Assembly (NCBI GenBank): GCA_028711215.1
Contig: JAQTSO010000004.1
Coordinates: 38,653-102,652 of the forward strand
Origin: Endomicrobiaceae bacterium
Lineage (GTDB): Bacteria > Elusimicrobiota > Endomicrobiia > Endomicrobiales > Endomicrobiaceae
DNA length: 64,000 nucleotides
Direction of reading: 5' to 3'
The notes beneath the pieces were generated by a model. The model worked only from the letters and a program-made list of their open reading frames with translations, had not been told where the DNA came from and searched no databases. Of this stretch, positions 5,094 to 62,271 are shown in pieces (positions within the stretch are counted from its first letter, which is position 1; every line of letters starts with the position of its first letter). Made by a program: the position numbers and the translations under genes.

Positions 5094-7074
5094 GCAAATC
5101 ACTTGGGTCTAATTCCAAATTAACATAAGTTTCTGTAGGTATTTTCAAATCCGTAATTTGTTCTAAAATTACTTTTATTTCGCGTTTTTTTCCTTTTAAA
5201 ATTATTTGCCATCTGTACGTTCCGTTTTGTTTTGCAATATAAGCCTGAGACGGACCTAACAATGTTATTTTATAACCAAACTTATCTATCTTTTCCTGCA
5301 GATAAACATATACCTGTTTAATAAAATCTAAAGTTTTTTTATCATCTTTATTTCTAACGGTGACTTTTGCAATATCACAAAAAGGCGGATATTTCAACTC
5401 TTGTCTAAATTCTATTTCCTGTCCGTAAAATTGTTTATAATTGTATTGTTTTGCATTCACTAATGCATAATTATCAAGATATTTTGTCTGCACCAAAACT
5501 TTACCCTTAATATCGGCTCTTCCGCACCTTCCTGCAACCTGTGTAATTAATTGAAAAGTTTTTTCGGAAGAACGAAAATCCGGCAAGTATAAAGAGGTAT
5601 CTGCATCAACAACACAAACCAGTGATATTCTTGAAAAATCAAAACCTTTGGCAACCATCTGGGTTCCCAGTAAAATATCATATTCCTCATTTTTTATACC
5701 TTCATAAACTTTAGAATATATTTCTTTACTTTTAGCCGTATCGGCATCCAATCTGAATATCTTTGCATGAGGAAGTATTCGTTTTAATTCTTCTTCAACC
5801 CTTTGCGTACCGACTCCAAAAATTGCAAATTCTTTCCCGTTGCATTTATTACATTTTATAGGGAATTTTACTTCCGAACCGCAATAATGACATTTTAATA
5901 TTTCAGGTTTTTTATGATATACCATTGAAACAGAACAGTTTTGACACTGATAAACCGTATCACATTTTTTACACATCAAAGTCGGAGAAAAACCTCTCCT
6001 GTTTAAAAATACTATTATTTGTTCTCTTCTTGCCAGTGCTTGTTTTATCGCTGAAATTAATTTGTTTGATAAAACCGATTCTTTATTTTTTATATCTTTT
6101 AAAGATATCATTTCTATTACCGGCATCTGTTTGTTATCTATTCTCTTTGGAAGCTCTAATAATTTTAAATGACCGTCAATACTTTTCTTATATGTTTCTA
6201 TTGCAGGTGTAGCTGAACCTAAAACACATACGGCATTATTGTATTTTGCGCGCCATAAGGCAATCTCTTTTGCATCATAACACGGTTTGTTATCTTGTTT
6301 ATATGTTGATTCATGTTCTTCATCTATTACAATAAAACCTAAATTTGTAAAAGGCAAAAAAATTGCAGATCTTGCACCTATTACAATCTTTATATCACCG
6401 GTTCTAACTGAATCAAATATTTTATATTTTTGTAACATTGACACACCGCTATGCCATAATGCGACGATGTCTCCGAATCTTTTTTTAATAATGCTTATAA
6501 ATTGGGGTGTCAGTGCGATTTCAGGAAGCAAAAAAATAGCCGTTCTGTTCTTATCCAGTGTTTTTTGAATAGCTCTTAAATAAATTTCAGTTTTACCTGA
6601 ACCGGTTACACCATGCAACAAAAAATTTATATTTTTATTTACGGATATTGCATCATATATTTTATCTAATGATTCTTTTTGATATTCGGTAACTTTAAAA
6701 TTGGGATTTTCTATTTTGGTTTTCTTACTGTTTTTTTTTGATGTTTTTCTTTTTGGAATTTTCATTGATATCGGAACTATCGTAGAAAGTGCTTCCCCTA
6801 CTGAACAAAGATATGTTTCAGATAACCAACCTGACATTTCTTTCATTTCTTTTGAAATAACGGGTTCATTGTCCAACACCTCAATAATATCTTTAAATTT
6901 TATTTTTTCATCACTTATTTCTTTTATATCAATTGCATAACCTGTAGTAATTCTGTTACCAAAAGAAACTTTTATCCTTCTGTCTATTATTTTTTCAGCA
7001 TCTAATTTAGCCGGAACCGTATAATAAAAGGATTTATTTAAAGGTATTGGAATAACAACTTCGATAACTCTCAT
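5089..7074 (-). CDS. priA: Primosomal replication restart helicase PriA
   Basis: PriA recognises stalled forks and reloads the replicative helicase. The protein shows an N-terminal DNA-binding domain, Walker A GVTGSGKTE near residue 155, the DEEH box, and the inserted zinc-binding region with paired cysteines (CKKC, CQNC, CHYC, CNKC), followed by GTQRVEEEL and the helicase C-terminal motifs QVAGRCGRAD. At 661 residues it is somewhat shorter than the roughly 730 typical of E. coli, mainly in the N-terminal part. It lies one base downstream of the glycosylase gene and its stop region carries the lemA promoter. Confidence 0.96.
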   Translation of the reverse strand: MRVIEVVIPIPLNKSFYYTVPAKLDAEKIIDRRIKVSFGNRITTGYAIDIKEISDEKIKFKDIIEVLDNEPVISKEMKEMSGWLSETYLCSVGEALSTIVPISMKIPKRKTSKKNSKKTKIENPNFKVTEYQKESLDKIYDAISVNKNINFLLHGVTGSGKTEIYLRAIQKTLDKNRTAIFLLPEIALTPQFISIIKKRFGDIVALWHSGVSMLQKYKIFDSVRTGDIKIVIGARSAIFLPFTNLGFIVIDEEHESTYKQDNKPCYDAKEIALWRAKYNNAVCVLGSATPAIETYKKSIDGHLKLLELPKRIDNKQMPVIEMISLKDIKNKESVLSNKLISAIKQALARREQIIVFLNRRGFSPTLMCKKCDTVYQCQNCSVSMVYHKKPEILKCHYCGSEVKFPIKCNKCNGKEFAIFGVGTQRVEEELKRILPHAKIFRLDADTAKSKEIYSKVYEGIKNEEYDILLGTQMVAKGFDFSRISLVCVVDADTSLYLPDFRSSEKTFQLITQVAGRCGRADIKGKVLVQTKYLDNYALVNAKQYNYKQFYGQEIEFRQELKYPPFCDIAKVTVRNKDDKKTLDFIKQVYVYLQEKIDKFGYKITLLGPSQAYIAKQNGTYRWQIILKGKKREIKVILEQITDLKIPTETYVNLELDPSDLL

Positions 7075-7075
7075 A

Positions 7076-7801
7076 TTATCTCTGTTTTAAATAGGATAGA
7101 ACTTCTTTCATATCCTGCCATGTATCTTTTTTCAAATTTGGATTTCTAAGCAATGCGGCAGGATGAAATGTCGGCATTAATTTGATGCCGTTATATGTCT
7201 TAAACTTTCCTCTTAAATTGCTGATAGTTTCTTCAGTATTTAATAAGCATCTTGTAGATGATGAACCCAAAGTTATTATTACTTTAGGAGAAATTATTTC
7301 TATCTGTTTATCAAGATAACCTTTACATTTTGACATTTCTTCTTGTGTAGGCGGCCTGTCATTATTGGTTAACTCAGGATTTGTAGGATCCTTCATCGGG
7401 TGACATTTTACTATATTTGCAATATAGATTGATTGTCTTGTATAGCCCATAGCTTCAATAATTTTATCAAGCAACGCACCTGCACGTCCTATAAACGGTT
7501 CGCCTTTATGGTCTTCCTTAAAGCCCGGACCTTCTCCGACAAACATAATCTCTGCATTTGGATTACCGACACCAAATACAAAATTCAATCTTGATTGTCC
7601 AAGAGAACATTTATTACAAACACATATTTTTTTTCTAAATATTTCCAATAACTCGCCGGCAGACTTTATTTGTTTTTGCTCTTTTACCATATTAGGTTTA
7701 GAAATTTCTTTACCGACAGAAATTTCGTCTTCCCCCCAGTTTTCATGTTCCCTAATTGCTGTTTTTGTAAGTTTTATAAGATTTGATTTTGATGATTTCA
7801 T
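7076..7801 (-). CDS. Family 4-type uracil-DNA glycosylase (4Fe-4S)
   Basis: This enzyme family excises uracil from deaminated DNA. The active-site motif GEGPGFKED is followed by [13 protein letters not shown], the family 4 signature. Four cysteines suited to an iron-sulfur cluster are visible: two in CVCNKC (around residue 60), one in VKCHP, one in SKCKGY. The second motif is [10 protein letters not shown]. The ORF start used here overlaps coaB by 50 bases and adds about 40 poorly conserved residues; a later start such as the MVKEQK methionine is possible, so the N-terminus is uncertain. Confidence 0.9.
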
Positions 7802-8405
7802 TAATTATCTCTTTTGCTATGTATTGTTTTTTTGCCGATTTTAATTTCTTTTTTTTGCCGTCGCTGAAAATCAAATACGGATTCGATTTTTCAGACGATA
7901 TTGTATCTATCCCGTTAGCAATTATCAGATCAAGTTTCTTTTCTTTAAGTTTCTTTTTAGCATATCCGAGTATATTATCTGATTCAAGTGCGAAACCAAC
8001 TACTGTTTTGTTATACTTATGTTCTGAGACATAACCGATTATATCAGGATTTTTTTTTAGTTTTAAATTTAAAATATTTTTATTTTTTTTAATTTTTATT
8101 TTTGAAAAAGAAACCGGAGCATAATCGGCAACTGCCGCAACACCGATAAAAATATCGGCAAATTTTAGATTTATTTTAACTGCATCAAACATTTGCTTTG
8201 CACTTATTACATCTATTATTTTACATTTCTTTGACGATTTCATTTCTTCTGAAGGACCTTTAACAACAATAATATTAAAGCCTTTTTTTAACGCCTCTTC
8301 AACTATTGCTTTTCCCATTTTACCGGAAGAGGAATTAGAAATAAATCTTACAGGGTCAATATACTCTCTGGTCGGACCGGATGTGATAAGAATTGTTTTT
8401 GTCAT
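7752..8405 (-). CDS. coaB: Phosphopantothenate-cysteine ligase (CoaB), stand-alone
   Basis: CoaB joins 4'-phosphopantothenate to cysteine in coenzyme A synthesis. The N-terminal [14 protein letters not shown] and the SNSSSGKMG motif are the hallmarks of the ligase, with VAAVADYAP later. In most bacteria this domain is fused to CoaC; here it is a separate 217-residue gene that starts 12 bases after the coaC stop. The C-terminus overlaps the glycosylase ORF by 50 bases. Whether it uses ATP or CTP cannot be judged from the sequence alone. Confidence 0.92.
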
Positions 8406-8417
8406 AGATTTTTAATT

Positions 8418-8963
8418 TCAGATAATTTCTTTAATTATTGTCTCTACTATATTTTCAACAGACGCTAAATTCCCGTTGCCGACAGTACCACATGCAAGTT
8501 TACCGCTTTTGGGTTCCACAAATTTATAGCCGTAATCTTTCAGAGTCATTATATTCTTTTGTGTGGCTTGATGTTCCAACATATTTGTATTCATTGCCGG
8601 ACATACTAAAATTTTGGCTTTTGTAGCAAGAACTGTCGAACAGACAAGATTATCTGCAAAACCATAAGCAAGTTTTGCAATCGTGTTTGCAGTTGCAGGA
8701 ACAACAACAACAATATCAGCTTTCTTTGCAAGGGATATGTGATCAATATCCCACGATTCTGTATTAAACATATCATGGTAAACTTTATTCTTTGATAATG
8801 TCTGAAATGTAAGCGGTGTAACAAATTTCATCGCATTTTCAGTCATAACACAAGTAACCATGGCATCTGCTGATATAAGTTTTCTAACTAAATCACAAAC
8901 TTTATACACGGCAATACCACCACAGACAGCCAATATAATGTTTTTACCTTTTAGGTTTATCAT
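8418..8963 (-). CDS. coaC: Phosphopantothenoylcysteine decarboxylase (CoaC), stand-alone
   Basis: This FMN-dependent enzyme decarboxylates phosphopantothenoylcysteine to phosphopantetheine. The flavoprotein fold is shown by GGIAVYKVCDL at the N-terminus, the PAMNTNM motif near residue 122, and the substrate-recognition clamp LACGTVGNG with the catalytic cysteine near residue 158. At 181 residues it is exactly the flavoprotein half of a CoaBC fusion. It overlaps rpoZ by one base (TAATG) and precedes coaB. Confidence 0.94.
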   Translation of the reverse strand: MINLKGKNIILAVCGGIAVYKVCDLVRKLISADAMVTCVMTENAMKFVTPLTFQTLSKNKVYHDMFNTESWDIDHISLAKKADIVVVVPATANTIAKLAYGFADNLVCSTVLATKAKILVCPAMNTNMLEHQATQKNIMTLKDYGYKFVEPKSGKLACGTVGNGNLASVENIVETIIKEII

Positions 8964-9220
8964 TACTGTTTTTCTTCTTGTTTTACTTGTTTAACAATTT
9001 TTTTCTTTTTTAATTCTGCTATTTCCGATTCTGTGTCTTGTTGTTTTTTACCCAACACATCTCTTACTGCCTTATCTAGCAACTGTATCTGAGATAAATG
9101 TTTATATCCTTCTTCGTCTTTTTTAACTTTTATCCATTCAATAGCCAGTTTTACAATTTCATACTTCCCCATTTTTGACTCAAAAAACACCTGATCTAAA
9201 GGTTTTTCAACTACACTCAT
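8963..9220 (-). CDS. rpoZ: RNA polymerase omega subunit
   Basis: An 85-residue protein encoded between gmk and coaC, the classical position of rpoZ. The conserved start (pattern of KMGKYEIVKLAIEWI) matches the omega helix that carries the family's YxxVxxxAxRA-like motif, though it is diverged. It has a lysine- and glutamate-rich tail. The gene begins 11 bases after gmk with a GGAG-type ribosome binding site. The call rests on weak sequence similarity plus strong gene-order support. Confidence 0.82.
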   Translation of the reverse strand: MSVVEKPLDQVFFESKMGKYEIVKLAIEWIKVKKDEEGYKHLSQIQLLDKAVRDVLGKKQQDTESEIAELKKKKIVKQVKQEEKQ

Positions 9221-9231
9221 TATACCGCTCC

Positions 9232-9825
9232 TTAAAATATTATTTTATTTCGTTTTATCGATAATCTTTCTGCTTTAATAACGGATTTTACATCGTTTAT
9301 ACTTTCCTGAAGTTTATCATTGAATATCAAATAATCATATTTGTCGGCATATTTTATTTCTTTTTTAGCATTTTCAATTCTTGTATTTATTGTTTCTTTA
9401 GAATCTTTATTCCTTTTTACAAGCCTGTTTTTTAATTCTTTTAAAGTCGGCGTCATGATAAATAACATCAAAGCATTTTTATATTGTTTCCTTATATTCA
9501 ATGCACCCTGAACATCTATATCCAGCAATACATCTTTGCCTTTTGATAATGCCCCCTGCAATACAGCTTTACTTGTCCCGTAATAATTGTTATGAACTTT
9601 TGCCCACTCAATAAATTTGCCGGTTTTAATATCTTGCTTAAATTTTTTTTCATCAACAAAAAAATATTCTCTGCCGTTTTTCTCACCGGTTCTCGGATTT
9701 CTTGTTGTGGTTGATATGGAATAAACTATATTTTTGTCATCTTTTATAATAGCATCACAAATACTTGTTTTGCCGGCTCCTGACGGAGAAGAAACTATAA
9801 TAATCATACCGTGTTTTTTATTCAT
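9232..9825 (-). CDS. gmk: Guanylate kinase
   Basis: It phosphorylates GMP to GDP with ATP. The P-loop SSPSGAGKTS is at residue 12, the GMP-binding stretch STTTRNPRTGEKNGREYFF follows at about 37-55, then DIDVQGALNIR and a lid region RNKDSKETINTR. Length 197 is normal. It overlaps yebC by one base (TAATG) and is followed by rpoZ, a very common gene pair. Confidence 0.97.
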   Translation of the reverse strand: MNKKHGMIIIVSSPSGAGKTSICDAIIKDDKNIVYSISTTTRNPRTGEKNGREYFFVDEKKFKQDIKTGKFIEWAKVHNNYYGTSKAVLQGALSKGKDVLLDIDVQGALNIRKQYKNALMLFIMTPTLKELKNRLVKRNKDSKETINTRIENAKKEIKYADKYDYLIFNDKLQESINDVKSVIKAERLSIKRNKIIF

Positions 9826-10574
9826 TATACGCTAAATTTTTCCATGTCTTCCTTTGAAATATCAAAATTGGAAAACACATTTTTCACATCATCATATTCT
9901 TCAAGTTCATCCATAAGTTTTATCATATGTTCTGCATCTGTACCTGTAAGTTTTACATATGTTTGGGGAAACATTGATATTTCCGATGTTGAAATCTCAA
10001 TATTCTTACTGCTAAGAGCATTTTTTACAGTTTCCAAATCCTCAGGCTTAGTATAAATCTCATAAACTTCATCTTCAACGGAAAAATCATCCGCACCGCT
10101 TTCAAGAGCAAGTGTCATGACCGTATCTTCATCGGAAGCGGTTTTATTTATTGATATATATCCTTTTCTTGAAAACATCCATCCTACACAACCTGATTCT
10201 CCCATATTACCTGAATGTTTTGTAAACATTTTTCTGATGTCAGCTGATGTTCTGTTTTTATTATCCGTTGTAGTTTCAATAATTAGTGCAACACCTGCCG
10301 GACCGTATCCTTCATATGTTATTTCTTCATACATAACACCCGGAATTTCACCTGTTCCGCGCTGTATGGCTTTTTTTATATTATCCTGCGGCATATTTGC
10401 TTCTCTGGCATCATTCATTGCTTTTCTTAATCTGGCATTATTTTCAGGATTACCGCCGCTTTCTTTTGCCGAAACAACTATTTCTCTGATAATTTTTGTA
10501 AAAACTTTACCTCTTTTTGAATCTGTTGCAGCTTTTTTGTGCTTAATACTGGCCCACTTATTATGACCTGACAT
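9825..10574 (-). CDS. yebC: YebC/PmpR family regulatory protein
   Basis: The full-length 249-residue YebC family protein starts with the diagnostic SGHNKWASIKHKKAATD and has the AMNDAREANMPQDNIKKAI and YEGYGPAGVA motifs. Members act as transcriptional regulators in some bacteria and, in more recent work, as factors that relieve ribosome stalling. It lies between the lipoprotein gene and gmk, not next to ruvC as in many proteobacteria. Confidence 0.96.
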   Translation of the reverse strand: MSGHNKWASIKHKKAATDSKRGKVFTKIIREIVVSAKESGGNPENNARLRKAMNDAREANMPQDNIKKAIQRGTGEIPGVMYEEITYEGYGPAGVALIIETTTDNKNRTSADIRKMFTKHSGNMGESGCVGWMFSRKGYISINKTASDEDTVMTLALESGADDFSVEDEVYEIYTKPEDLETVKNALSSKNIEISTSEISMFPQTYVKLTGTDAEHMIKLMDELEEYDDVKNVFSNFDISKEDMEKFSV

Positions 10575-10585
10575 AACAACACCCC

Positions 10586-11500
10586 TTAATATCTTATTTT
10601 AAAAATTTGTTTTCCTGTACCGTCAAATGCCGTTCTTGAAATTTTTCTGCCGTTACTGTAAACATCTATATACAACGGAACTTCCGAATTATTATTGCTG
10701 TATACTTTTGTGTCCCCGTCTAATTTCCCATTTTTATATTTTTCAATTTTATTTATAGCACCGTCTTCATAATAGGTTCTTGTTTCACCAACCAGTTTGT
10801 CCTGAGAATAGTTGTATTCTTTCATTAATATCCCGTTTGAAAAATATTCTTTACTGTATCCTTCTTTTTTACCCTTGTAATATTCTGTTTCTGTTCTAAC
10901 AGTACCGGTGACAAAAAATTCCTTATATAATCCGTCCAATATACCGTCATAATACTGTGCGGACACTAAAAGTGTATCAGTCGGAGAATATTTTCTCAAT
11001 GTACCGTTTAATAAATTATTTTTGTACCCTGCCTCGCTTTTCTTGTTGCCGTTATCATAATATTCCGTAACTTGGCCTTCCAAATAACCGTTTTTATAAT
11101 TTTTTACATATTCCAGGTTACCGTTCGAATAATATTTTTTATTTAGCCCCTCAAGTTTACCGGCATTATAATTAATTTCTGCTACAAGTTTTTTATCCAT
11201 ATCATACTGTTTAATTAAACCCTTCGGAGTTTCGCCCTCAAACAAAATAACTTTACCGGCTTTATCCAATTTTTCTTTGGCAATAATTTTATCATTAAGA
11301 ACATACTCATATTCTCTGGGAATACCATTTGTCACAAGTACAAGTCTCTTTTCTGTATAAACAGGATTTTCGGATGCAATTTGATCACCCGGTTCTGTTA
11401 CCGATATTGGATACATTTCATTATTAATTTTTTGCGGCGAAGAGCAAGAAATTACTGAAAACATTAAAAACAATATCAGATAGCCAAAAATACATTTCAT
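10586..11500 (-). CDS. Lipoprotein with YwqK/MORN-like repeats
   Basis: The N-terminus is a lipoprotein signal: a hydrophobic stretch ending in the lipobox VISC near residue 19. From about residue 105 to 275 there is a run of roughly seven repeats of 23-24 residues with the pattern YYxNGxLxxxxxYKNGxLxG, as in the YwqK antitoxin-component family and MORN-like beta-hairpin repeats. The function is unknown; the repeats suggest a rigid envelope-anchored scaffold. It overlaps atpC by one base and so is probably translated with the ATP synthase operon. No toxin partner was seen nearby, so the name 'antitoxin' should not be taken literally. Confidence 0.82.
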   Translation of the reverse strand: MKCIFGYLILFLMFSVISCSSPQKINNEMYPISVTEPGDQIASENPVYTEKRLVLVTNGIPREYEYVLNDKIIAKEKLDKAGKVILFEGETPKGLIKQYDMDKKLVAEINYNAGKLEGLNKKYYSNGNLEYVKNYKNGYLEGQVTEYYDNGNKKSEAGYKNNLLNGTLRKYSPTDTLLVSAQYYDGILDGLYKEFFVTGTVRTETEYYKGKKEGYSKEYFSNGILMKEYNYSQDKLVGETRTYYEDGAINKIEKYKNGKLDGDTKVYSNNNSEVPLYIDVYSNGRKISRTAFDGTGKQIFKIRY

Positions 11501-11931
11501 TATTTTGCACCTCTATTTCTATTTTTAATTTTGATTTTATCAAAAAATTTTAATTCCAAAACTGCTTTTTGCAAATCATGTTCGTTAATTGCTGATGTTA
11601 ATTTATCTTTCTTGTTCAATTGCTCTTCAGCATATTCTTTTGCTTTCTGTATTTTTTGTTCATCTAATTCTTCAGACCTTACTGCAAAATCCGCTATTAT
11701 ACTTGCCACATTATTTGAAACTTCTAAAAAACCGCCCATAATGGCAATAAATTTCATTTCTCCTTCATGCTCTATTTCAACCTGCCCACTTGATAATTTT
11801 GTAATTATATCAGCATGATCTGCAAGAATTGTAATAATGCCTGTTTCAGTAGGCAGAGTCATTTGGGATATTTCTCCGCTAAAAACTGACCCTTCAGGTG
11901 ATAGTATATCTAATTTAAACAACTTTGTCAT
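11500..11931 (-). CDS. atpC: ATP synthase F1 epsilon subunit
   Basis: The central-stalk epsilon subunit couples rotation to catalysis and can inhibit ATP hydrolysis. The N-terminal beta sandwich is recognisable from KLDILSPEGSVFSGEISQMTLPT, with GGFLEV near residue 87, followed by a two-helix C-terminal domain. It is 143 residues long and the last ATP synthase gene of the operon, beginning 12 bases after atpD. Confidence 0.96.
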   Translation of the reverse strand: MTKLFKLDILSPEGSVFSGEISQMTLPTETGIITILADHADIITKLSSGQVEIEHEGEMKFIAIMGGFLEVSNNVASIIADFAVRSEELDEQKIQKAKEYAEEQLNKKDKLTSAINEHDLQKAVLELKFFDKIKIKNRNRGAK

Positions 11932-11943
11932 TGTATATTACCC

Positions 11944-13386
<1,443 letters not shown>

Positions 13387-13414: not shown

Positions 13415-14260
13415 CTAACTTATAAGTCCGTTTGCCAAATCCAGTATTTCATTTGTAATTTTTTCCTGTCTTGATTTATTATAAACAGTCGTTAAAAATA
13501 TTGAAATATCTTTTGCATTTTCTTTTGAATTATTCATTGCCTGCATTCTTGCCGCCTGTTCGGATGCATAAGCATTCATTATCATATCGTAAAATTCAAC
13601 TTCAAAATAATACGGCATTAAACTTTCAAAAACGGATTTCGGAGAGGGTTCAAAAATATGAATCCCTTTATCCACAAAACCTTTATCTATTTCAACCGGT
13701 GCCAAAACTGTCGTAATCGGTTGCTGAACCATACGGTTTTTAAAATTTGTATAAACAACTTCGACGCCGCAAATCTTTTTCTGTGCATAATAGGTTTCAA
13801 TAAATTTCAACACATGTGTAAATTCGAAATATTTTGGAAAAGTCGTTCCCATATTAAACGATGCTATAACATTAAACCCGTTTTTTATACAGAAATTCTG
13901 TGCTTTTTTGCCTATGGTAACCACATAGTCATGCTTTGAAACTTTAGAAACAAACTCTAAAAAAAGATTTGCCAGTAATCCTCCGCACAAACCCTTATCC
14001 GGAGATATTATGTAGACCAATTTTTTATCTGTTACGGACTTTAATTTAAAAAATACATGTTCTGCCAGTTCATCACCATGTTTTGTTAAAAGCTTTTGAA
14101 CTACGGTTTTAACTCTTTGTGCATATGGTCTGTTTTTTTCAACGGCACTTTGTGCTTTTTTAATTTTAGATGCAGCAATCATTTCCATAGCTTTTGAAAT
14201 CTGTGCTATGTTATTTGCTGTTTTTATTCTCTTTTTTATTTGTTGTAAACTTTCTGCCAT
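13415..14260 (-). CDS. atpG: ATP synthase F1 gamma subunit
   Basis: The rotating central shaft of F1. The N-terminal helix (QIKKRIKTANNIAQISKAMEMIAASK) and the SPDKGLCGGL motif near residue 93 are typical, as is the C-terminal helix ending QEKITNEILDLANG. Length 281 is normal. It sits between atpA and atpD, separated by about 55 bases on each side. Confidence 0.97.
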   Translation of the reverse strand: MAESLQQIKKRIKTANNIAQISKAMEMIAASKIKKAQSAVEKNRPYAQRVKTVVQKLLTKHGDELAEHVFFKLKSVTDKKLVYIISPDKGLCGGLLANLFLEFVSKVSKHDYVVTIGKKAQNFCIKNGFNVIASFNMGTTFPKYFEFTHVLKFIETYYAQKKICGVEVVYTNFKNRMVQQPITTVLAPVEIDKGFVDKGIHIFEPSPKSVFESLMPYYFEVEFYDMIMNAYASEQAARMQAMNNSKENAKDISIFLTTVYNKSRQEKITNEILDLANGLIS

Positions 14261-55847: not shown

Positions 55848-56663
55848 TTAAAGTTCTTCAGATCTTTTTTTTGCCTTTTCTATAGCTGAAAAAACGATTT
55901 GTCTAAAATTATTATTTTCAAAATCTTCTATTGCTTTTTCCGTAGTTCCGCCGGGTGAAGTAACATGTTTTCTTAATATTGTATCGTCTAAACCACTCTC
56001 TATAAGCATCGTGCCTGCACCATATATTGTCTGGTAAACAAGGTGCTTTGCGACATCAGCCGGAACACCAAACTGCTCAGCTGTATTTCTCATAATCTCT
56101 GATAAATAAAAAACATAAGCCGGACCTGAACCGGAAACAGCAGTTATTGCATTCATTATTTTTTCTTCAACACATTCAACTCTTCCTATAACAGAAAACA
56201 TATCTGCTATATCCTGTATATTTTCTTTACTTGCATTTTTACCACCACAAACAGCTATAGCTCCTTTTCCAACCAGTGCCGGGGTATTCGGCATTGCTCT
56301 GACAACGATATTTTTTGGTAAAAACTTTTCAATAAACTCAGTACTTATACCGGCTGCAACTGATACTATCAACTTTGCCTTCTTTATTTCATCAGAATGC
56401 TCTTTTAGAATGGTATCAAAATGTTGCGGTTTTGTTGACAAAAAAACAACTTCCGCATTTTCCAATGCCTGAGATTTATCTTGCTGTATTTCAACAGCAT
56501 ATTTGTGTGATAAAATGCTTAATCTTTCTTCCGATATATCATTACAAACAATATTAGAACTTTTTACAATATCATTTTTCACAAAACCGGCGATTATGGC
56601 TTCCGCCATATTGCCTGAACCTATAAAAACAATTTTTTTATCATAAAATTTTTTATTTATCAT
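55848..56663 (-). CDS. proC: Pyrroline-5-carboxylate reductase
   Basis: It makes proline from pyrroline-5-carboxylate. The dinucleotide-binding motif FIGSGNMAEAIIAG is near residue 12, VRAMPNTPALVGKGA near 122, and the signature GSGPAYVFYL near 165 with TSPGGTTEKAI later. The ORF track starts at 56693, but the ATG at 56663 has GGAG in front and begins with INKKFYDKKIVFIG, so it is preferred (271 residues). It overlaps yggS by 11 bases. Confidence 0.95.
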   Translation of the reverse strand: MINKKFYDKKIVFIGSGNMAEAIIAGFVKNDIVKSSNIVCNDISEERLSILSHKYAVEIQQDKSQALENAEVVFLSTKPQHFDTILKEHSDEIKKAKLIVSVAAGISTEFIEKFLPKNIVVRAMPNTPALVGKGAIAVCGGKNASKENIQDIADMFSVIGRVECVEEKIMNAITAVSGSGPAYVFYLSEIMRNTAEQFGVPADVAKHLVYQTIYGAGTMLIESGLDDTILRKHVTSPGGTTEKAIEDFENNNFRQIVFSAIEKAKKRSEEL

Positions 56664-57351
56664 ATATTCTTTCTCCAAATACAGCTGAACCAATCCTAAC
56701 CATATTCGACCCTTCTTGTACAGCTATTTCAAAATCATCTGACATACCCATTGATAGAACTGAAAAATCTTTATTATTAAATCTGTGCTTTAACTTTAAA
56801 AAAATATTATAAGCTGTTTTAAAATACGGTCTGACTTCTTCTTTAAGTTCAAAATAAGGAGCTATTGTCATTATTCCACATATTTTGATATTTTGACAAT
56901 TCTCAATGCAATAATCATATATTCCAGCCGCTTGTTCCTCAGAAACACCGTGTTTTGTAATTTCCTGTGAAACTTTTAGCTCAATCAAACATTCTTGAAT
57001 TTTGTTAATATCTCTGGCATGTCTATTTATATCAGATGCTAACTCTCTGCTGTCTAAAGATTGTATTAAGTCAAAATTTGATACAGTCTTTTTAACTTTA
57101 TTTGATTGAAGATGTCCGATAAAATGTTTTTTAACATTTTTTAAAACTTCTTTATTTGAAAGAACATCAAACTTTGGCAGAGCTTCTTGAATCTTACTTT
57201 CAGCTATATCTGTTATGCCAGACATAATAGCTGATTCAACATAATCTGCTTTAAAAGTTTTAGTAACGGCAACAATAGAAACATTCCTGCTATTAGACAC
57301 ATCTGATATTCTGTCACGGATAAATGCTATATTTTCACTTATATTTACCAC
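56653..57351 (-). CDS. yggS: YggS/PROSC-family PLP-binding protein
   Basis: A PLP-binding protein with a single TIM-barrel domain that keeps PLP and amino acid pools in balance. The lysine is in VAVTKTF near residue 30; HFIGHLQSNKVK near 80 and the late SMGMSDDFEIAVQEGSNMVRIGSAVFGER are clear. The start is a GTG; there is no ATG and no clear ribosome binding site in front, and the -10 box ends only about 9 bases upstream. Confidence 0.94.
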   Translation of the reverse strand: MVNISENIAFIRDRISDVSNSRNVSIVAVTKTFKADYVESAIMSGITDIAESKIQEALPKFDVLSNKEVLKNVKKHFIGHLQSNKVKKTVSNFDLIQSLDSRELASDINRHARDINKIQECLIELKVSQEITKHGVSEEQAAGIYDYCIENCQNIKICGIMTIAPYFELKEEVRPYFKTAYNIFLKLKHRFNNKDFSVLSMGMSDDFEIAVQEGSNMVRIGSAVFGERIYDK

Positions 57352-57414: not shown

Positions 57415-59589
57415 TTAACACACTACTTTGTCAATTGGCTCTGCAAGATTTTTTGACATTGGCAATGTTATTAAAAAACTTGACCCATGTCTGTATTTTG
57501 TTTTAAAAATTATTTTCCCATTATGGTTTTCTTCTATCATTCTTTTTGTAACATATGCTCCTATACCGGAACCTGATTTACTTGATGGTTTTGTAGTAAA
57601 AAATGCAGAAAATATTTTCGCTTCATTCTCCTTTTTTATACCTATACCATTATCTGCGATTTCTATATTTACTAATCCTTCTATAAATTTCAAACTTACT
57701 TTAATCTCCGGTTTAAAATTATTTTTTATATTTTCCAACCTATTCAATTGTTCCATTTCAACAATCGCTTCATAGGCATTGTCCAAACAATTATATATAA
57801 CCTCCTGTATCTGAGATTTAACACCATATATCTTATCTTCTTCCGGTATTTCTAACACCATGGGGATATTTTCAATTCCATGCTTTACCTTCATCAGATC
57901 CATTGATTGGTCTACTATTTCCTTAAATGCAAAATATCCAAAGTATGTATCTCGCTCCGTTGTCTTTGCAAAACTTAATATACCTTTTAATATTGTATCT
58001 GTCTTTTTTACATTCTCTGTCATTTTAGCAATGATTTCTTTTATTTCTTCTACCATATTTTTAACTTTCGGATTATTTTCTACAAACTCCTTATTTTCGC
58101 CTTCAAAATCTCTTATTTCAAAGTCAATACTTGTCTGTCCCATTAAAAAAACGTTCAATCTATTTTTGATTTGATGTGCCATTCCGTCAGCCATTCCACC
58201 TATAGATGCCAATTTTTCAGCATCAAACAATCTTTTTTGTTGTTTTTGTGTTTCTGCCAAAAAATTACAATTTTCTACTGCAAGTCCCGCCTGATTTGAC
58301 AATGTTTTAAATACCTCTATATCTTGTGATGAATAAACCGTTTTGTTGGTTTTTTCTCCCAATACTAAAAAAGCTATCAATTTGTCTCTTAACATTGACG
58401 GGACTATTAAATTTATATCATTATGTATCTCTGAAAATAATTCTTTCAATTCTTTGGTCATACTTAAAAATAAAAACGGATTTCTCATAAACTTCATATA
58501 CTGGCAAATTTTACTATCATCTAAAAAAGTTATATCCAAATTTTTATTTGCATCCCCTCTTGCACCTAAACAAATAAATTTATTTTTTTCTTGATCAAAT
58601 ATAAATAAATATACAAAATTAACTTTTACTGATCTCTTAATAATTCTAACTGTCAACTGAGCTAATTTTGGCAATTGTTGTTGTTCCATCATGCCCTTTG
58701 ATGCCTGTACTAACAATTGCTGATATGCATTCTGTTCTGCTAATAATATTTTTTCAGCTTTTTTTTGTAAATATCTAAAAAATATGGGACCTATTGTAGA
58801 CAAAACAAATAACATTATTGAAGAAATAATCCATTGATTCGTTACAAATCCAAGGTAAAAGGGTACACCTAAAATTAAAGCATATAACACAATAAAAATA
58901 CCCGTTTGTGTTAATGCTAATTTAATATCCATTAAATTAGTTTTTACAATACTCAAACTAATAATCGCAAGAAAAATTAAGGTAAGTATATATCCAAATG
59001 GATATATTTCTATAGAATTAAATTTAGTTATATAATCGCCTGATCCCAAAAAAGCAATTGAAAAAGCAACTAGTAAATATTTTAATTGCTGTTGTTTTAT
59101 CGCACTGAATTTTGGATTATTTAAATTTTTCAGCAACAGAATCATAGCTATAGCGATTACAACGGTAAATTGTACAAGTATAAGAAAATATAAATTCCCA
59201 GCTTTTGGATAAAATCCCCAAAAACATATTTTGATACCACTATAAAAATAATTTGTAAAAAAACCAATTACCCAAGCTCCTGTAGAAAAAGCATACAGTA
59301 TTTTAACAATCTTTTCATATTTATGTTTCAAAAAAGTTACTATCATATGAAATATACCAACAGGCAAAATAAGAACACCTAGAAAGCCTATTTTGGCAAA
59401 TATATATGCCTTTTTTGGATCTGCTGTCCAGTACATCAAAGAAAATGGAAAAAGCCAAAAAAATACAGCTAAACAAATTATAAGATAAGCTCTGTTAATA
59501 TTAGCTTTTTTATTTTTAAAAAATACAAAAAAACCTAAAAATAAAAACAAAACAGAAGTTATTGTTGGTAAAAGGGCATAGTAATTCAC
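57415..59589 (-). CDS. Sensor histidine kinase with 7TM-type N-terminus and GAF domain
   Basis: The first about 280 residues contain eight to nine hydrophobic segments of the histidine-kinase N-terminal 7TM type. A GAF domain follows (about 285-440; QDIEVFKTLSNQAGLAVEN at its end), then the phospho-acceptor helix with His472 in GMAHQIKNRL, and an HATPase domain with N-box YNCLDNAYEA near 600, NGIGI, and SGSGIGAY. Length 724. No response regulator is encoded nearby. It begins one base after the aldehyde dehydrogenase gene, so the two are almost certainly one transcript. The signal is unknown. Confidence 0.9.
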   Translation of the reverse strand: MNYYALLPTITSVLFLFLGFFVFFKNKKANINRAYLIICLAVFFWLFPFSLMYWTADPKKAYIFAKIGFLGVLILPVGIFHMIVTFLKHKYEKIVKILYAFSTGAWVIGFFTNYFYSGIKICFWGFYPKAGNLYFLILVQFTVVIAIAMILLLKNLNNPKFSAIKQQQLKYLLVAFSIAFLGSGDYITKFNSIEIYPFGYILTLIFLAIISLSIVKTNLMDIKLALTQTGIFIVLYALILGVPFYLGFVTNQWIISSIMLFVLSTIGPIFFRYLQKKAEKILLAEQNAYQQLLVQASKGMMEQQQLPKLAQLTVRIIKRSVKVNFVYLFIFDQEKNKFICLGARGDANKNLDITFLDDSKICQYMKFMRNPFLFLSMTKELKELFSEIHNDINLIVPSMLRDKLIAFLVLGEKTNKTVYSSQDIEVFKTLSNQAGLAVENCNFLAETQKQQKRLFDAEKLASIGGMADGMAHQIKNRLNVFLMGQTSIDFEIRDFEGENKEFVENNPKVKNMVEEIKEIIAKMTENVKKTDTILKGILSFAKTTERDTYFGYFAFKEIVDQSMDLMKVKHGIENIPMVLEIPEEDKIYGVKSQIQEVIYNCLDNAYEAIVEMEQLNRLENIKNNFKPEIKVSLKFIEGLVNIEIADNGIGIKKENEAKIFSAFFTTKPSSKSGSGIGAYVTKRMIEENHNGKIIFKTKYRHGSSFLITLPMSKNLAEPIDKVVC

Positions 59590-59590
59590 T

Positions 59591-61165
59591 TTATTTCCTT
59601 GTTAGACTTATTCCTTGCAAATGACTTGTTTTTTGCCATATATAATTCATTTCGCCGGAAGGTCCTCCGGTTTTTCCGACTCCACCATGAACAGCGTTAT
59701 ATGGAGATACGTCAACATGCCTTGAATTTATTCTCAATAAACCACTATTATCAATATATTTCATAAATTGCCTGGTGTAATGTGGCGATTTTACCCAAAC
59801 AGATGCTCTTAATCCATATTCATTATTTTCTGCAATTTCCAGCATCTTATTAAAGATATCTTTATCTCTGTCAATTTTATTATTTTTAATGGATTTTACT
59901 TTTATTACCGGTATTACGGGGAAAAAGTTTTCTTCTTTAATAAGTCGAATATTGTATAAATCTAGATTTTCCGTATCAAATTCTACTAATGTTGGTTGAA
60001 AATATACACCCCTTTCATTTTCAATTCCGTTATGATCAACTCTTTTCCCCCCACATAATAATTCCCCTTTTTTATTTAATGCTTCTTCTAAAAATTCTTG
60101 ACATTCTTTCATTTTAATAACGGGAGTTAAAACAGTTTCAGAATTTGATGGAAGAGCAATTTTTGTTTTTTTAACTTCACAAATAAACTTTTCAATGAAT
60201 AAATCATATATATCTTCATGGACTATTATATTTTTAGGAACCATACATATTTGTGTTGAACCCAAAAATGCATCTAGCGATGCTTTTACTGCATCATCAA
60301 AATTACAATCATGCCAAACATATAAATTATCATTACCGGATAACTCCAATATCATTTTTTTACCATTATTATACCCTCTCTTAGCTAATTCCAAACCATG
60401 TTCGCTTTCACCGAAAAAGAAAATATCATTAACCTTAGAATTTGATATCCATTCATCCATTATATTTTTTGCGTTACCATTTATTATATTTAAAACGCCA
60501 TCTGGAGCATTATTTTCTTTTAAAACTTTTACAACAATATTTTTCCATGCAAAAATTGTGGCAATAGGAGCTTTTAAAGGTGCTTTTACAATAACAGCAT
60601 TACCTGATAAAAAAGCATACACAGCTGCTAAAGAATTACTGGCTGATGCATTTTTAGGTGGACTAACAACGATAACACCGTCTGGTTTTCTCACAGAATA
60701 AGTTCTCTCATTGCCTTCGGAACCAAGTTCTCTAAATAAATCATTCTTACATAAATTATTACTTGTTTCTGATAATCCTTTTAACATTGAATGAAATTCC
60801 CATTTTGCAAGGTTATAGGGATGTCCTTCTATGACAAGAATATTTATAAATTTCTCTTCATTTCGTTCTAAGTTTTTTAAAATATCTAGAACAATTTTTT
60901 TTCTCTTCGAAATCGGCATATTTTTCATAATTTTACTTGCTCTATATGCAGATTCTATTGCCTGTTTATTAAGTTCATTATCCCCAACACAATATTTGGC
61001 ATAAATATATTTATCAACATCTTCAGGAATTTCACCCCTCTTCAATTTTGTAATTGTCTGGTAAGTTTTTTTAAAATCAAGGATAGCCTGGTCAGCATAA
61101 GGGAAATATTCATACTTACCTGTATCAACATCTTTGCCGTTGACAAACAATGTAAATTCTTCCAT
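59591..61165 (-). CDS. Aldehyde dehydrogenase-family protein
   Basis: A 524-residue member of the aldehyde dehydrogenase superfamily. The catalytic cysteine is in GSTQICMVPKN near residue 305, the glutamate in ELSGNDN near 271, and the region PDGVIVVSPPKNASASN corresponds to the cofactor-binding start. The glutamate motif is diverged from ELGGKSP, and the first about 70 residues do not resemble common family members. The substrate is unknown. It follows prfB by 19 bases and precedes the kinase; a role in making or removing a signal for the kinase is only a guess. Confidence 0.82.
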   Translation of the reverse strand: MEEFTLFVNGKDVDTGKYEYFPYADQAILDFKKTYQTITKLKRGEIPEDVDKYIYAKYCVGDNELNKQAIESAYRASKIMKNMPISKRKKIVLDILKNLERNEEKFINILVIEGHPYNLAKWEFHSMLKGLSETSNNLCKNDLFRELGSEGNERTYSVRKPDGVIVVSPPKNASASNSLAAVYAFLSGNAVIVKAPLKAPIATIFAWKNIVVKVLKENNAPDGVLNIINGNAKNIMDEWISNSKVNDIFFFGESEHGLELAKRGYNNGKKMILELSGNDNLYVWHDCNFDDAVKASLDAFLGSTQICMVPKNIIVHEDIYDLFIEKFICEVKKTKIALPSNSETVLTPVIKMKECQEFLEEALNKKGELLCGGKRVDHNGIENERGVYFQPTLVEFDTENLDLYNIRLIKEENFFPVIPVIKVKSIKNNKIDRDKDIFNKMLEIAENNEYGLRASVWVKSPHYTRQFMKYIDNSGLLRINSRHVDVSPYNAVHGGVGKTGGPSGEMNYIWQKTSHLQGISLTRK

Positions 61166-61184: not shown

Positions 61185-62271
61185 TTATTTTTTTTGCATT
61201 AGTTTCCAATTTAAATACTCATTTATAAAATTATCCAAATCACCATCCATAACTTTTGACACTTGTGACGTTTCATAATCGGTACGATGGTCTTTAACAA
61301 GCTGATAGGGCATAAAAACATAAGAACGGATTTGGTTCCCCCACGCAATTAATCCTTTTGCATCGTAATGTTTCTCATAAGCCTGCCTGTTTTTTTCTTG
61401 TTCATATTCATATAACTTGGCTTTTAGTAAAGTCATTGCAGTTGCTCTGTTTTTTATTTGCGATCTTTCAGCTTGAGATTGAGAAACAATATTTGTCGGC
61501 AAATGCGTAATTCTAACTGCTGAATCTGTTGTATTAACATGTTGTCCGCCGGCACCGCCTGACCTATATGTATCAATTCTTAAATCTTTTTCGTCTATAA
61601 CCATATCTATTTCGTCATCTACTTCCGGTATAACATCTACTGAACAAAAAGAAGTATGCCTTCTTTTATTTGAATCAAAAGGTGATATTCTCACCAATCG
61701 GTGAACCCCGATTTCTGATTGCAATAGTCCATAAGCATATTCACCCTTAACAATGAAAGTTATATTTTTTATACCTGCTTCATCGCCGTCTAATATATCT
61801 ACGGTATTTAAACTAAAACCTTTATCTTCTGCCCACATTGTATACATTCTAAAAATCATTGAAACCCAGTCACAGGACTCAGTTCCGCCGGCACCTGCAT
61901 TTATTGAAACAATGGCATTATTTTTATCATGTTGTCCGGAAAGTTTTGTTTTTATATCTAATTTTTTTATTTCTATATCTAATTTTTTGGTGTCTTCTTG
62001 TAATTGCCTGGCTAATTCTTCATCTTGCTCTGTTTCTAACAGTTGTTCTATCTCCGACAATTCGTTTATTTGTGTATATAAATTTTGCCACTGGTTAACT
62101 AAATTTTTTAGTCCGTCTAATTTCCCCATAATTGTTTTTGCATTATTTTGATCTAACCAAAAATCTTGTGCCAAGACAATATTATCTAACTCTGAAATCT
62201 CTTTAATTTTACCATCTATATCAAAGAGACCCCCTTAACATATTTATTTTTTCTTTAAATTCTTCAAGCAT
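61185..62271 (-). CDS. prfB: Peptide chain release factor 2 (programmed +1 frameshift)
   Basis: RF2 terminates translation at UAA and UGA. The ORF track gives only the main frame, starting with a false TTG. The real ATG at 62271 follows AGAGGAT and opens a 16-codon leader ending CTT TGA; the frame then shifts by +1 at CTT into GATATAGATGG and joins the main frame, giving about 361 residues. The SPF anticodon-like tripeptide is in ISPFDSN and the GGQ loop in GGAGGQHVN. It begins 11 bases after lnt. Confidence 0.95.
62221..62235 (-). promoter_or_regulatory. RF2 autoregulatory frameshift signal
   Basis: Reading the minus strand, AGGGGG TCT CTT TGA: a Shine-Dalgarno-like stimulator, three bases, the slippery CTT, and an in-frame UGA. 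The spacing is identical to that of E. coli prfB. Low RF2 slows termination at UGA and favours the shift. Confidence 0.95.

Follow-up and report, generated by a model that had tools for sequence, protein, structure and literature searches.

The window analyzed here is a 64,000-nucleotide stretch of an Endomicrobiaceae genome with an assembly size of 2.2 Mb, completeness of 99.6%, and contamination of 8.8%; Ca. Proruminimicrobium and Ca. Ruminimicrobiellum, also Endomicrobiaceae, are among its nearest named relatives. It contains a gene for an aldehyde dehydrogenase (ALDH)-superfamily enzyme followed by one for a 7TM-GAF sensor histidine kinase (Table 1). Both reading frames are intact and separated by exactly one base (position 59590), which bears out the tight linkage pointed out in an earlier note on this DNA. 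All genes from lnt to ileS lie on one strand. The AAGGAA sequence at the end of the enzyme gene suggests that the translation of the enzyme and kinase is coupled. Because prfB ends so close to the enzyme gene, the transcript may also include prfB, which is a conserved upstream neighbor of the enzyme gene in the g1/g9/g11 lineages. The kinase gene is followed by yggS (56653–57351) and then proC; therefore, no response regulator adjoins the pair in the window.

The segment 62174–62275 of the minus strand contains the classic autoregulatory programmed +1 frameshift of prfB. The leader frame MLEEFKEKINMLRGSL stops at AGGGGGTCTCTTTGAT; the release-factor-2 frame is reached by a +1 shift at CTT TGA, so that the start of the mechanically called open reading frame is placed too late.

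Table 1 Features of the enzyme–kinase locus in the window and of the related G011 locus
Feature	Position	Strand	Details
ALDH-superfamily enzyme, 524 aa	59591..61165	-	Aldedh 221 bits; catalytic residues compared in 25 homologues
Catalytic residues of the enzyme			Cys307, Glu274, Asn172, Glu412, Phe414
7TM-GAF sensor histidine kinase, 724 aa, GTG start	57415..59589	-	H-box His472 and ATPase motifs intact
HisKA_7TM membrane sensor region of kinase, residues 10-222	58924..59562	-	PF16927, E 9.7e-12
Kinase GAF domain, residues 307-440	58270..58671	-	GAF_3, E 1.8e-8
Predicted phospho-accepting His472 of kinase (GMAHQIKNRL)	58174..58176	-	Invariant in 7 aligned kinases
Kinase HATPase_c domain, residues 590-712	57454..57822	-	E 1.5e-18
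Ribosome-binding-like AAGGAA	59595..59600	-	Inside enzyme gene end, 5 nt before kinase GTG; read from sequence
prfB (release factor 2)	61185..62174	-	Ends 19 bases upstream of enzyme gene
L097 (G011:C8:37000-56000)	6905-12867		prfB, 7TM kinase, SRPBCC gene, acyl-ACP-reductase-like gene, second 7TM kinase, purC-like gene

Families and residues of the enzyme and kinase

The enzyme belongs to the ALDH superfamily, with a match to PF00171 far above the curated cut-off (221 versus 23 bits). None of the NCBIfam ALDH equivalogs scores above its cut-off, the best being lactaldehyde dehydrogenase (213 versus 650), and among solved structures the closest are generic ALDHs of low identity, again lactaldehyde dehydrogenase. 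The AlphaFold model of the enzyme, with a pLDDT of 52.9, is too poor to be used. Residues C307, E274, E412, and F414 are invariant in 25 of 25 homologues from three phyla, and the oxyanion Asn172 is kept in 22 of the 25, including the window enzyme, the exceptions being three proteins from Omnitrophota. The earlier note had considered the enzyme to be set apart by its N-terminus and by an altered glutamate motif. The former distinction holds, since the first ~60 residues form a family-specific N-terminus that is conserved into Omnitrophota and partly in Streptomyces. The latter does not: the motif, LELSGND, is only mildly unusual and is a family signature in which no catalytic residue is lost; the catalytic Glu is invariant in all homologues compared. 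The distinctive C-terminus is also conserved in the Omnitrophota proteins and recognizable in those of Streptomyces. In most homologues, the position usually occupied by the NAD-selecting Glu, according to our own assignment, is apparently filled by Leu, with a basic residue after it, an arrangement hinting at the use of NADP(H).

The kinase is a HisKA_7TM sensor histidine kinase, in which HisKA_7TM (45.6 versus a cut-off of 28.6) and HATPase_c (67.7 versus 26.4) both score above their cut-offs, GAF_3 scores 35.3 bits, and the predicted phospho-accepting histidine is invariant. The AlphaFold model of the kinase (pLDDT 69.1) supports only a run of long N-terminal helices. The architecture is similar to that of PrsK and other 7TM/GAF kinases (TIGR02916); however, the window kinase is not PrsK, as its score of 52.7 falls below the cut-off of 300. 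It has no fused receiver. In the literature found, HisKA_7TM sensor domains are listed without a ligand.

Conservation of the enzyme–kinase pair

The enzyme was detected in 17 of the 60 Endomicrobiaceae and 9 of the 285 Omnitrophota genomes searched, and is absent elsewhere in a 150-genome sample of Elusimicrobiota (E<=1e-60). In all loci with a contig that reaches far enough, a 7TM kinase gene lies beside the enzyme gene or with a single gene in between. In Endomicrobiaceae, the gene following the enzyme encodes a 7TM kinase in every locus with a continuing contig; the contig of G024 breaks off, and in G042 the enzyme gene is split over two contigs, with the kinase following its 3' part. In Omnitrophota, the kinase directly follows the enzyme in seven of nine loci, and in the other two comes after one intervening gene, which is nitronate-monooxygenase/FabK-like in L041 and a GMC oxidoreductase in L042. 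The linkage greatly exceeds what chance would produce, because HisKA_7TM kinases are rare, with a total of 35 across ten enzyme-positive genomes. The probability of a chance linkage is approximately 1e-21 if the genomes are taken as independent, which they are not fully.

The Endomicrobiaceae enzymes form one clade. By contrast, their partner kinases belong to several lineages in a quick tree with some long branches, in which the paired kinases of genera g10 and g13 are nearer to unpaired HK2 kinases. A strictly vertical history of the pair, with a single clade of paired kinases, was rejected for Endomicrobiaceae (p-AU 2e-5). Because the enzymes form one clade and the kinases do not, the linkage has persisted while the kinase was replaced or diverged deeply. 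The flanks of the pair change as well: prfB is missing in the g10/g13 lineages, and the neighbors in Omnitrophota are quite different. Most Endomicrobiaceae loci retain only the enzyme and kinase, often amid housekeeping genes. The earlier note had named conservation across genomes as a check of the pair and its lack among close relatives as the refutation; this refutation clearly fails, since the pair is kept across Endomicrobiaceae and in a second phylum. The enzyme and kinase are associated, and a functional link between them is strongly supported.

The earlier observation that no response regulator follows the kinase is correct for the window. The absence is a local feature, since other Endomicrobiaceae and some Omnitrophota have regulators next to the pair. 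A receiver-only regulator lies directly 3' of the kinase in L046 and L048 from Endomicrobiaceae and in several Omnitrophota loci; a GAF-HD-GYP gene is added in two Omnitrophota loci, L007 and L045. Loci with receiver and HD-GYP neighbors are L007, L045, L046, L048, and L101. Among the ten receivers of the window genome, the one most similar to those of L046 and L048 is encoded in an HK2-receiver-GAF-HD-GYP operon (G000:C102:75.3-79.0 kb) with intact HD-GYP motifs. This similarity suggests the C102 receiver as the best candidate for the regulator on which the window kinase acts. HK2-type kinases occur in nearly all enzyme-positive genomes, but also in some enzyme-negative ones, and GGDEF proteins are present in these genomes.

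The open frames at positions 14177–15163 of L046 translate a tandem repeat of VPIARCGVRKRF units with variable stretches between them, and resemble a CRISPR array rendered in amino acids.

Probable chemistry of the enzyme

Full-length homologues of the enzyme, with 34% identity, are encoded in azoxy clusters on Streptomyces plasmids, together with genes for KAS III, ACP, an aminotransferase, a flavin reductase, and VlmB-like proteins; two of the three clusters also contain a serine-tRNA ligase gene. In the azodyrecin cluster, the putative dehydrogenase Ady2 has been proposed to make a fatty aldehyde, which is converted to an amine by an aminotransferase (PMC9379638). The gene context, rather than the sequence of Ady2, indicates that the Streptomyces homologue probably corresponds to Ady2. 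The Streptomyces ALDHs share a recognizably similar N-terminus and the same catalytic residues with the window enzyme; however, their clusters contain no kinase, and the ALDH gene is followed by aminotransferase and N-oxidation genes.

The pair loci of Omnitrophota variously include genes for ACP, acyltransferase, FabK-like/nitronate-monooxygenase, methyltransferase, GDSL, GMC, and SRPBCC/acyl-ACP-reductase-like proteins, most of which are missing from the loci of Endomicrobiaceae. The SRPBCC and acyl-ACP-reductase-like gene of L044 scores 178 bits with TIGR04058 and 172 bits with PigE; since the cut-off of the long-chain acyl-ACP reductase equivalog TIGR04058 is 449.7, it is a superfamily relative only. 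Acyl-ACP-reductase-like genes were found in 82 of 270 Omnitrophota genomes, and a 7TM kinase is located downstream in 17 of the 30 best Omnitrophota loci, with one gene intervening in L116. A Rossmann motif of the GGTGDIG type is present in all the reductase-like sequences, and 29 of 31 contain the predicted active-site Cys, the position of which is assigned from cyanobacterial AAR. A homologous thioester-reductase domain, TamH from tambjamine biosynthesis, produces fatty aldehyde from acyl-ACP in vitro (PMC9594044).

Large clusters in two Omnitrophota loci, L044 and L045, combine an acyltransferase, an SRPBCC/acyl-ACP-reductase fusion, the ALDH, two or three 7TM kinases, several receivers, and a methyltransferase/FabK-like fusion or HD-GYP. 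A GMC oxidoreductase, possibly an alcohol/aldehyde oxidase, is a recurrent neighbor of reductase, ALDH, and kinase genes in Omnitrophota (L118, L122, L042, and L140).

The dehydrogenase is absent from G011, a 100% complete genome of Endomicrobiaceae. Its orthologue of the window kinase (57% identity) directly follows prfB and lies between prfB and a reductase-like enzyme. In this single case, a predicted aldehyde-making reductase thus appears in the place of the dehydrogenase beside the sensor. The consistent enzyme–kinase linkage and this substitution together suggest a lipid-signal system that has not been described. No acyl-ACP-reductase-like enzyme was found in the window genome at E<=1e-6; therefore, the window lineage would depend either on the ALDH by itself or on a different source of aldehyde. 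Because of the Streptomyces clusters, the lipid genes and reductase of Omnitrophota, and the substitution in G011, it is reasonably probable that the enzyme acts in fatty-acyl/fatty-aldehyde chemistry on a substrate of this class. The direction of the reaction and the identity of the ligand can be proposed with much less assurance.

Proposed mechanism and related signaling systems

We slightly favor the interpretation that the pair is a signal-enzyme/sensor cassette, in which an ALDH-fold enzyme and a 7TM-GAF kinase are joined by an acyl-derived, fatty-aldehyde signal. The enzyme would interconvert a fatty-acyl derivative, either an acyl thioester or a fatty acid, and a fatty aldehyde, and would thereby form, or tune the level of, the aldehyde or a derived lipid. 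Either this product or a derivative of it would be sensed in the membrane by the kinase, which would phosphorylate a receiver-only response regulator, encoded beside the pair in relatives. In the window genome, the candidate regulator is the C102 receiver of the paralogous HK2-receiver-GAF-HD-GYP operon; since it belongs to an HD-GYP operon, the output may be the breakdown of cyclic-di-GMP. The aldehyde may be the substrate of the enzyme and not its product, because the conserved catalytic Glu of the enzyme is typical of hydrolytic aldehyde oxidation and not of thioester reduction. The idea in the earlier note that the enzyme makes, removes, or modifies the ligand of the sensor is now the best explanation and has been sharpened to fatty-acyl/fatty-aldehyde chemistry, with both the ligand and the activity being predictions. 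More tentatively, it can be speculated that fatty aldehydes or their direct derivatives are signals in Endomicrobiaceae and Omnitrophota, where two unrelated, interchangeable types of enzyme, ALDH-fold and acyl-ACP-reductase-like, would supply co-encoded HisKA_7TM kinases acting on stand-alone receivers and HD-GYP proteins.

The main rival, which we regard as rather unlikely, is a response to toxic aldehydes or lipid damage. The enzyme would oxidize fatty aldehydes to acids, and the kinase would sense the aldehyde or membrane damage and adjust expression, so that a stimulus is removed and no signal is made. The conservation of both the catalytic Glu and Cys, as in oxidizing ALDHs, agrees with detoxification, and so does the presence of the enzyme together with an aldehyde-making reductase in L044 and L045, as expected of a producer and consumer. 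However, the residues at the apparent NAD-selecting position hint at NADP(H) in most homologues, the Streptomyces homologues sit in biosynthetic clusters, and an aldehyde-forming reductase can replace the enzyme beside the kinase. It is less probable still that the enzyme belongs to a lipid or natural-product pathway, leading for example to a fatty amine, alcohol, or ester, which the kinase regulates in response to a stimulus unrelated to the enzyme product. The ACP, acyltransferase, FabK/nitronate-monooxygenase, methyltransferase, GDSL, and GMC genes of the Omnitrophota loci would fit such a pathway, but most Endomicrobiaceae keep the enzyme and kinase alone, often between housekeeping genes; therefore, these loci contain no pathway for the kinase to control. 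The shared strand of the window genes from lnt to ileS could reflect an accident of operons shared with prfB and housekeeping genes. This explanation, to which we assign a negligible probability, was rejected because the neighbors change and the pair stays, both in g10/g13 without prfB and in Omnitrophota.

The hosts of the pair are little-studied, mostly uncultured bacteria from two phyla, and the repeated linkage of HisKA_7TM kinases to predicted fatty-aldehyde enzymes in them offers a concrete, testable class of ligand. If the signal-enzyme/sensor cassette is real, it would add fatty aldehydes or derived lipids to two-component signaling as a new chemical class, provide a ligand class for HisKA_7TM, and open signaling in Omnitrophota and in gut and rumen Elusimicrobiota to experiment. 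No description of this enzyme–kinase pairing in Endomicrobi- or Omnitroph- organisms was found in the literature published under open licenses.

The proposed arrangement resembles several characterized systems. In alpha-hydroxyketone signaling by CqsA/CqsS and LqsA/LqsS, the synthase of an acyl-derived signal, which is a PLP enzyme, is linked to a multi-TM kinase, like the arrangement proposed for the window pair. Among the neighbors of the kinase that were examined, the only PLP enzyme is the housekeeping yggS. CqsS senses CAI-1 (PMC8895600). The RpfF-RpfC-RpfG system likewise combines a lipid-acting enzyme with a multi-TM sensor kinase and HD-GYP output. However, RpfF has a crotonase fold, whereas the adjacent enzyme here is of the ALDH or AAR type; RpfC, a hybrid kinase, carries a receiver, which is missing from the kinase here; and RpfG fuses the receiver and HD-GYP, which are separate proteins here. 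In Xanthomonas, this system mediates DSF quorum sensing with a fatty-acid ligand (PMC5391125). The PhcB/PhcS/PhcR/PhcQ system of Ralstonia signals with 3-hydroxy fatty-acid methyl esters (PMC8578825, PMC11960443), and its lipid-signal enzyme, sensor kinase, and further regulators are similar to the components discussed here. PhcB is a methyltransferase, whereas none adjoins the window pair and one is present in a single Omnitrophota locus (L044). The window pair is not a member of RpfF/RpfC/RpfG, CqsA/CqsS, or PhcB/PhcS, because it departs from their defining features in having a different enzyme and no fused receiver; it is best interpreted as probably working in a manner like theirs.
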